Below are positions 3,245-3,647 of a stretch of 21,157 nt of DNA, piece by piece. The notes beneath the pieces are model-generated. The model saw nothing but the letters and a program-made list of their open reading frames with translations. It had not been told where the DNA came from and searched no databases. Within the stretch, counting starts at the first letter, position 1, and each line of letters begins with the position of its first letter. The stretch is from a virus: positions 1 through 21,157 of IMG/VR virus record IMGVR_UViG_3300009430_000252; one strand, 5' to 3'. The translations under genes and the position numbers were made by a program.

Positions 3245-3317
3245 TGGAAGCGATTGGTATCGAACCAACATCTAAGGATTTTCAGTCCTCCGCATAGACC
3301 GTCTTTGCTACGCTTCC
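3245..3317 (-). tRNA. tRNA-Phe (GAA), copy 2 of tandem pair
   Basis: Cloverleaf read on the minus strand: acceptor GGAAGCG pairs with CGCTTCC, discriminator A; the anticodon loop CTGAAAA gives anticodon GAA; anticodon stem GAGGA/TCCTT has one G-T pair; T-arm GTTGG-TTCGATA-CCAAT has one wobble. The D-arm is weak: GCA/TGC closes a long loop that contains the usual GG. CCA is not encoded. It lies 7 nt downstream of the other tRNA-Phe and 46 nt before rtcB. The acceptor and T stems differ from the neighbouring copy, so this is not a recent exact duplication. The weak D-stem and the wobbles leave open that it is a specialised or decaying tRNA. Confidence 0.88.
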
Positions 3318-3324
3318 AAATGTG

Positions 3325-3397
3325 TGGAGATGACAGGAATCGAACCTGTTTCTTTGGATTTTCAGTCCAACGCATAGACCAACTCTGCTACATCTCC
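3325..3397 (-). tRNA. tRNA-Phe (GAA), copy 1 of tandem pair
   Basis: Cloverleaf read on the minus strand: acceptor GGAGATG pairs perfectly with CATCTCC, discriminator A; anticodon stem TTGGA/TCCAA encloses CTGAAAA, giving anticodon GAA; T-arm ACAGG-TTCGATT-CCTGT is perfect. The D-arm is GCA..TGC around a loop with TTGG, weaker than in a standard elongator. CCA is not encoded. It is the first gene after the attenuator-like leader. No separate promoter box is visible between the leader terminator (3469) and this gene, so it is probably transcribed from the promoter at 3614-3647. Confidence 0.92.
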
Positions 3398-3468
3398 CTA
3401 TGTCCGGTGATTGATACTAATTTGAATTTGGGTGAATTGATTAGGATAAAGCCGGAGATTATTTGCAC

Positions 3469-3506
3469 AAAAAAAACCGCTTGCTACAGGAGTAACAAGC
3501 GGTTTT
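3469..3506 (-). terminator. Attenuator terminator hairpin (segments 3:4) upstream of tRNA-Phe genes
   Basis: Read on the minus strand, AAAACCGCTTGTTAC pairs with GTAGCAAGCGGTTTT: 15 bp with one U-G wobble around a TCCT loop. The T-run that follows is eight long in all (3469-3476 as A on the plus strand). This is a textbook intrinsic terminator, but it lies between a promoter and the tRNA genes rather than behind a gene. Its 5' arm contains the 11-nt segment that can pair with the upstream antiterminator segment. Confidence 0.88.
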
Positions 3507-3557
3507 AATATACTTTATTATTTGACTAACTGACAAATAAAGTCCACTTGTTACTCC
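3489..3557 (-). promoter_or_regulatory. Antiterminator pairing (segments 2:3) with nested stem
   Basis: On the minus strand, GGAGTAACAAG (3557-3547) is perfectly complementary over 11 nt to CTTGTTACTCC (3499-3489), which is also part of the terminator's 5' arm. Inside this pairing, ACTTTATTTG (3543-3534) pairs with CAAATAATAAAGT (3524-3512) with a 3-nt bulge, extending the helix. A third element, GTTACT (3566-3561), can pair with AGTAAC (3555-3550) inside segment 2. The set gives alternative 1:2, 2:3 and 3:4 hairpins, the layout of classical transcription attenuators. Confidence 0.7.
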
Positions 3558-3609
3558 GGAAGTAACTAAAATGTAGATCATTAAAAAATATGCCAGTAGA
3601 TTGTTTCAT
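3526..3609 (-). CDS. Putative Phe-rich attenuator leader peptide (27 aa)
   Basis: A 27-codon ATG-to-TAG frame on the minus strand starts 4 nt after the -7 promoter box, so it would be leaderless or nearly so. It contains five Phe codons: 8 and 9 (tandem TTT TTT), 14, 17 (TTC) and 25. It begins MKQSTGIFFND and ends LFVS. The stop codon falls in the loop of the nested stem inside the antiterminator, that is, between segments 2 and 3. A ribosome stalled at codons 8-9 would leave segment 2 free to form the antiterminator, and one that reaches the stop would mask segments 1 and 2 and favour the terminator. No ribosome-binding site is visible, which is usual in Bacteroidota. The frame is short and AT-rich, so a chance ORF cannot be excluded. 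Confidence 0.4.
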   Translation of the reverse strand: MKQSTGIFFNDLHFSYFRSNKWTLFVS

Positions 3610-3613
3610 AATG

Positions 3614-3647
3614 CAAACATATGAAGCATTTTTGAATTTACAACAAA
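3614..3647 (-). promoter_or_regulatory. Bacteroidota-type promoter for leader-tRNA-rtcB unit
   Basis: On the minus strand, TATGTTTG (3621-3614), followed by C, matches the Bacteroidota -7 consensus TAnnTTTG. It is preceded 19 nt upstream by TTG (3643-3641, within TTTGTTG), matching the -33 element. The predicted start of transcription falls close to the ATG of the leader peptide at 3609. Confidence 0.75.

Follow-up and report, generated by a model that had tools for sequence, protein, structure and literature searches.

A phage operon of two tRNA-Phe genes and rtcB preceded by a predicted leader-peptide attenuator, one case of a putative class of attenuated tRNA arrays

The window, i.e., the whole stretch of DNA that was analysed, is a 21,157-base IMG/VR virus record containing phage genes (RecT, DNA methylases, SNF2 helicase, RadC-like and DUF5131). 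On its minus strand, DUF5131, a promoter, a leader, two tRNA-Phe genes, rtcB and finally a hairpin with a T-run follow one another. The original prediction, made from the letters alone, had placed an attenuator-like leader with three mutually exclusive pairings before these tRNA genes and rtcB, and all the elements in its description of the leader are confirmed. The features of the unit are as follows.

3614–3643, minus strand: promoter, with a −33 TTG, a 19-nt spacer and the −7 box TATGTTTG (consensus score; predicted +1 at 3609)
3526–3609, minus strand: leader peptide ORF, MKQSTGIFFNDLHFSYFRSNKWTLFVS followed by a stop codon (ORF reading; Phe at codons 8, 9, 14, 17 and 25)
3560–3566, minus strand: stem 1 (GTTACTT), pairing with 3556–3550
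3544–3557, minus strand: stem 2, the antiterminator GGAGTAACAAGTGG, forming 14 bp with stem 3, its 5' part also pairing with stem 1
3489–3502, minus strand: stem 3, CCGCTTGTTACTCC, the 5' arm of the terminator (folding, shuffles)
3469–3506, minus strand: terminator 3:4, stem 3506–3492 with 3487–3473, loop TCCT, T-run to 3469
3324–3397, minus strand: tRNA-Phe (GAA), copy 1 (tRNA search)
3244–3317, minus strand: tRNA-Phe (GAA), copy 2, divergent (tRNA search)
1831–3198, minus strand: rtcB, RNA ligase (PF01139, E=1.3e-37)
1769–1815, minus strand: long hairpin and T-run closing the unit 3' of rtcB (read directly from the sequence)

As had been claimed, both tRNA genes and rtcB lie beyond terminator 3:4. 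The two tRNA-Phe genes have identical anticodons and clearly different bodies, and hence are not a recent tandem duplication. Regarding the ligase, its assignment to RtcB is based on the PF01139 match and on the alignment of C127, H198, H217, H281 and H359 with the catalytic positions of PH1602.

The promoter, announced as a good one, is indeed of the Bacteroidota type: TTG-N19-TATGTTTG scores 9/10 against TTTG/TAnnTTTG, a value which 21 of the window's roughly 42,000 positions reach. In Flavobacterium, the TAnnTTTG −7 box sits at −12 to −5 (PMC9723704), a placement which puts the predicted +1 at the A of the leader ATG, so that the transcript would be leaderless. Leaderless mRNAs are known in Bacteroidota, though as a minority, representing 5.5% in F. 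psychrophilum (PMC9723704), while around 3.7% of the 5' UTRs are shorter than 10 nt in B. thetaiotaomicron (PMC7366714). The unannotated ORF starting there, which was missing from the first account of the locus, has 27 codons, five of them for Phe, and overlaps stems 1 and 2. The Phe content of one such ORF is weak evidence alone, 6% of the short ORFs of the window being equally rich, and Phe richness was dropped as sole evidence, with an ORF containing at least four Phe occurring upstream of rtcB in about a dozen of 94 cases. In another frame, an ORF of 40 codons (3581–3459) spans stems 1 to 4.

Regarding the three pairings, 1:2 (predicted as GTTACT/AGTAAC) is present and extends to 7 bp including one G-U (GTTACTT/GAGTAAC, −5.6 kcal/mol), while 2:3 exists together with its nested stem within the loop, its length being 14 bp with one G-U (GGAGTAACAAGTGG/CCGCTTGTTACTCC, −22.6 kcal/mol) and not 11 bp. 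Pairing 3:4 is as described, with 15 bp, a TCCT loop and a T-run (−22.2 kcal/mol). The antiterminator 2:3, located 51 nt 5' of the terminator, and the intrinsic terminator 3:4 exclude each other upstream of tRNA-Phe, tRNA-Phe and rtcB. Such an arrangement is not what random sequence yields: the folding energy of the leader RNA is −42 kcal/mol (z=−5.3), which none of 200 shuffles equalled. Dinucleotide shuffling of the upstream stretch produced an exact complement to stem 3 over 11 nt in 2 of 20,000 trials, and 2,000 shuffles of the whole leader never gave a terminator together with an antiterminator.

The leader–tRNA–rtcB arrangement, which the original prediction had proposed to look for in other genomes, was not encountered a second time. 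About 160 rtcB loci from viral and bacterial contigs lack such a leader, among them the few phages with a tRNA near rtcB (80 genomic and the viral loci were scanned for terminators and antiterminators, the viral and 60 genomic ones for tRNAs). The leader was likewise absent from the 17 DUF5131 neighbourhoods examined, and searches of viral contigs returned neither an exact match to the stem 1–2 sequence nor a close sequence homologue of the window leader. As a family signature, the shared start TAnnTTTG-N4-ATGARACAATC was rejected, the other inspected matches lying in long or unrelated coding sequences without terminators or tRNAs; ATGARACAATC, common to the window leader and to that of another phage (G010), is uninformative as a sign of common descent. 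In Rhodococcus phage Grayson (L309, 3607–6156), an RNA ligase and an RtcB-like ligase adjoin tRNA-Leu and tRNA-Gly, with no leader. Separately, recurring inverted-repeat elements of the types TAACG...GGCGG and CGCC...GTTA, recalling attC-like or mobile sites, were seen in Bacteroidota phages directly upstream of rtcB (L003–L006) and in intergenic regions (L017, L020, L038).

What recurs elsewhere is a leader with a tRNA array. Viral contigs were searched for the phage-type tRNA-Phe anticodon region, giving 42 loci, and arrays were scanned for a terminator just upstream of the tRNAs with a complement within the preceding 180 nt, after which more DNA of the phages concerned was inspected. In these phages, the leader ORFs mirror the amino acids of the downstream arrays, a leader beginning with MKMLSLTLLLLSSLLLSWLL preceding, for instance, Trp/Leu/Ser tRNAs.

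G019, MNKNFNIEFIAVAAERIAEFAERVFAIDNSVHRFK: before Phe, Glu and Ala tRNAs
G019, MTMFVVDIKDCKTRRDGRGFGKHDKDRHKHRVI: before Asp, Gly, Lys and His tRNAs
G019, MKMLSLTLLLLSSLLLSWLLRRSLVGTK: before Trp, Leu and Ser tRNAs
G010, MRQSLLFSYCWLSPKGGPGSY: before Phe, Tyr, Ser, Trp, Cys and Leu tRNAs
G010, MRNIQHTAQMNIVRKGDEPNCVEALVVSIMK, after the MRQSLLFSYCWLSPKGGPGSY unit: before Pro, Gln, Gly, Asp, Asn, Ile, Val, Lys, Arg, Met, Glu, Thr and His tRNAs
G014 and G020, diverged versions of one leader (Ile/Ser/Thr/Phe/Gly/Arg/Asn/Cys): before arrays of those amino acids
G014 and G020, diverged versions of a second leader (Lys/Tyr): before arrays of those amino acids
G014 and G020, diverged versions of a third leader (Asp/Glu/Val/Leu/Ala/Trp): before arrays of those amino acids

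The amino acids are split among the leaders, G010 having two and phage G039 at least seven putatively attenuated arrays; several such separate arrays per phage can be seen in L399–L402 (G039), L167 (G019), L163 (G010) and L165/L169 (G014/G020). In phage G008 (L162:4500–4622, reverse complement; also L048), the leader is a peptide of 40 residues with all 20 amino acids, and it stands before a mixed array of more than 20 tRNAs. Leader MKKVQRHTWPTFTQCTTVKGVLYT of G031 (L177, reverse complement 10150–10281) matches an array for Pro, Thr, Cys, Phe, Trp, Gln, His and Arg; no clear antiterminator was found for it, and its mechanism may differ from that of the other leaders.

For G039 (L258; 164 kb, 56 tRNA matches), the remaining arrays were fetched once the hypothesis had been formed on L258 and other phages. 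Six further arrays have a terminator, and each of them (6/6) has a matching leader.

MNMKRIYKYYRFIKTTPKGSVMR: Tyr, Met and Phe tRNAs; Lys next
MQMISKQNKQKKQPSEVVV: Lys tRNA; Gln next
MKTNQQQQQQVMDSSARPPD (MKTNQQQQQQ... before three tRNA-Gln): Gln, three copies
MEFNMTFTTLNNNNERECRSTETI (...LNNNNER...): Asn, three copies, and Arg
MIIATVYEREEERMRY: Glu, five copies
MQVTTITTADTAAIIDRGTIAMGTGVHA: Ala, Gly, Met, Thr, Ile, Arg, Val and Asp

Permutation among these six arrays only gave 0.0015, close to the floor for n=6, and the choice of ORF was non-blind where several were listed, chiefly in the Glu case. The Gln and Asn leaders have only a weak antiterminator, and no convincing leader was found for the Pro-Pro tRNA pair of the same phage.

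Statistically, the match between leaders and arrays is strong. With leaders picked by structure only and the longest fitting ORF taken, the sum of z for cognate matches was 33.3 versus 0.26 ± 6.2 after permutation (0 of 200,000 permutations as high), rising to 59.9 with more cases (again 0 of 200,000). For nine of the 13 leaders, the best-ranked array was their own, and these nine hold every amino acid of their array; the four unmatched candidates are L231 and L243, which look like false positives, one uninformative all-20 peptide and one array fragment. An antiterminator of at least 7 nt accompanied 11 of 19 terminators located at most 100 nt upstream of a tRNA, versus 8 of 185 terminator-like sites elsewhere in these phages, taken as control (p=9e-9); for at least 8 nt, the figures were 9 of 19 versus 1 of 185. 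The antiterminator of most leaders occupies the final codons of the ORF and starts 40–56 nt 5' of the terminator, a range that includes the 51 nt of the window; the stop codon is then at most about 27 nt from the antiterminator end. The window, whose leader residues also match its tRNAs, fits this class. As exceptions, G024, G003 and G014c need hand alignment and two leaders stand at 68–70 nt. Moreover, cognate codons are concentrated ahead of the antiterminator, making up 149 of 222 (67%) there against 20 of 65 (31%) within and beyond it (p=3e-7; none of 100,000 shuffles within leaders did as well), which is what one would predict if the ribosome has to stall before reaching it.

Compensatory changes, noted by eye, are few and all come from other phages, none from the window: CAGTCGGGT/ACCCGACTG in G020c versus CTGTCGGGT/ACCCGACA in G014c (A-U to U-A), CGGGTTTT/AAAACCCG in G014a versus GGGGTT/AACCCC in G020a (C-G to G-C), and AGAGGCTCTT/AAGAGCCTCT in G010b versus AGGCTT/AAGCCT in G023b. 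A wider viral sample was searched through other tRNA patterns; of its 250 array starts, four passed the scan for structure, two of them clearly (L258, L282). No such leaders were found in the Crassvirales sampled, in six cultured phages with named hosts or in one 735-kb record. The predicted tRNA-array attenuator is thus a minority design, encountered in uncultivated phages that are unrelated to one another, many of which have promoters of the Bacteroidota type. Among the tRNA-array leaders seen, the window is the only case with rtcB, RtcB being absent from 19 phage records of the same survey, clear class members among them.

A simpler explanation, which we consider unlikely, is that hairpin 3506–3469 merely ends a DUF5131 operon or a small unrelated transcript, that the tRNAs and rtcB are transcribed from a separate promoter at 3471–3441, and that 2:3 is due to chance. 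DUF5131 does lie on the same strand, ending at 3675, and the 75 nt between terminator and tRNA in the window leave space for a weak promoter. However, a strong promoter separates DUF5131 from the terminator, and the shuffles of the upstream stretch speak against a fortuitous 2:3. The original prediction had named a separate promoter inside 3398–3468 as the finding to count against it; the best match in this region, TTTG-N19-TATCCTAA (3471–3441), exists and is weak, scoring 7/10, a value equalled at about 1,265 positions. In addition, the terminator-to-tRNA gap is 5–13 nt in several phages, so that the same design leaves no room there for a promoter belonging to the arrays themselves.

Slightly less probable still is an attenuator that does not sense Phe-tRNA, in which any translation, the 40-codon ORF or an RNA-binding protein would pick the structure. 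This second ORF does cross stems 1–4, and the Phe richness of a single short ORF carries little weight alone, but leader composition tracks the array in the other phages and, in the window, the enriched residue is Phe while both tRNAs are tRNA-Phe. Finally, a constitutive leaky terminator fixing the tRNA dose with no response to anything is very improbable, as it leaves unexplained pairing 2:3, its site at the ORF end and the leader-array match.

We therefore favour, with a probability of about 0.86, the reading that a leader-peptide transcription attenuator controls the phage operon tRNA-Phe–tRNA-Phe–rtcB, as one case of a tRNA-array attenuator class. The attenuator reading of the original prediction is hence upheld, with support from the Phe-rich ORF placed behind a promoter, from ribosome geometry and chiefly from leader composition tracking the tRNA set elsewhere. 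From the observed anatomy, whose non-randomness and class-wide leader-array match are described above, we infer leader translation, stalling and antitermination.

Ribosome geometry was considered with a masking model in which the RNA is covered to about 12 nt beyond the start of the A-site codon, this footprint being assumed. When Phe codon 8, 9 or 14 occupies the A site, the model leaves stem 2 free and 2:3 is the best fold before stem 4 appears, stem 1 being under the ribosome at codon 14; a ribosome that has reached codon 17 or the stop buries stem 2, and 3:4 alone is possible. Codons 8, 9 and 14 are thus the likely sensing codons, and, by geometry only, a stalled ribosome would free the antiterminator and a terminating one block it. 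Transcription would begin around 3609 and ribosomes translate the Phe-rich peptide. When Phe-tRNA is sufficient, the ribosome would pass stem 2 to reach the stop codon, stem 2 being covered or kept in 1:2, and stem 3 would join stem 4, ending the transcript at about 140 nt. A shortage of charged Phe-tRNA would instead stall the ribosome at codon 8, 9 or 14, stem 1 would be covered and stem 2 would take stem 3; once 2:3 is formed, the polymerase would read through and two tRNA-Phe as well as the RtcB repair ligase would be made.

Regarding the signal, the original prediction had invoked loss or cleavage of tRNA-Phe. Cleavage would indeed cause it, but what would be sensed is a shortage of charged tRNA-Phe, which also results from Phe starvation; in nature, the trigger may be a host defence that cleaves tRNAs, or starvation. 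RtcB seals breaks with 2',3'-cyclic-phosphate and 5'-OH ends, the kind left by anticodon nucleases, and a phage RtcB with conserved catalytic residues fits a "replace and repair" function, though amino-acid starvation or a general host shut-off would produce a signal identical to tRNA damage. We lean, by a small measure, towards a broader picture in which, in many tRNA-rich phages, each array is a closed loop, the leader sampling its own amino acids and a shortage, for instance once host immunity has cleaved tRNAs, leading to replacement of those tRNAs, with RtcB repair added here. If true, leader-peptide attenuation would extend from amino-acid operons to tRNA genes, split by codon sets, and one operon would join tRNA shortage to RNA repair.

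The purpose of phage tRNAs has been debated for decades between codon supplementation and replacement of tRNAs destroyed by defence (PMC10264068). Phage tRNAs have been proposed to evade anticodon nucleases (PMC10264068) and shown to rescue phages from retron PtuAB, a strong promoter being described for the tRNA in that case (PMC11555353); no mention of attenuation or of a leader was found in either study. A leader peptide naming the amino acids whose shortage would trigger each array indicates the signal to which a phage responds and opens this debate to direct testing. The predicted unit resembles phage tRNA and T4 Pnkp-Rnl1 counter-defence in that it would replace or repair tRNAs destroyed by the host. 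The original prediction knew of no such circuit for a tRNA-rtcB unit, and our literature search likewise gave no report of attenuated phage tRNA arrays.

Among Bacteroidota, leader-peptide attenuation has been inferred upstream of biosynthesis operons of Flavobacterium psychrophilum (PMC9723704), and leader-like sORFs are present in 5' UTRs of B. thetaiotaomicron (PMC7366714). These predicted attenuators of amino-acid operons precede chromosomal biosynthesis genes, whereas the class described here precedes phage tRNA arrays. T-box riboswitches also couple transcription termination to tRNA charging but, unlike the window leader, bind uncharged tRNA directly and need no leader peptide; this identity was rejected, an Rfam search of the window at gathering scores giving tRNA matches only, with no T-box and no leader family. 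Close parallels are the enterobacterial leaders pheL, before pheA, and pheM, before pheST, which combine a Phe-codon peptide with mutually exclusive antiterminator and terminator and are expected to respond to charged tRNA-Phe. The window likewise has a Phe-codon leader and exclusive antiterminator and terminator; however, while pheL and pheM control biosynthesis or synthetase genes, the predicted attenuator of the window would control tRNAs and rtcB, in a phage and from a leaderless start.
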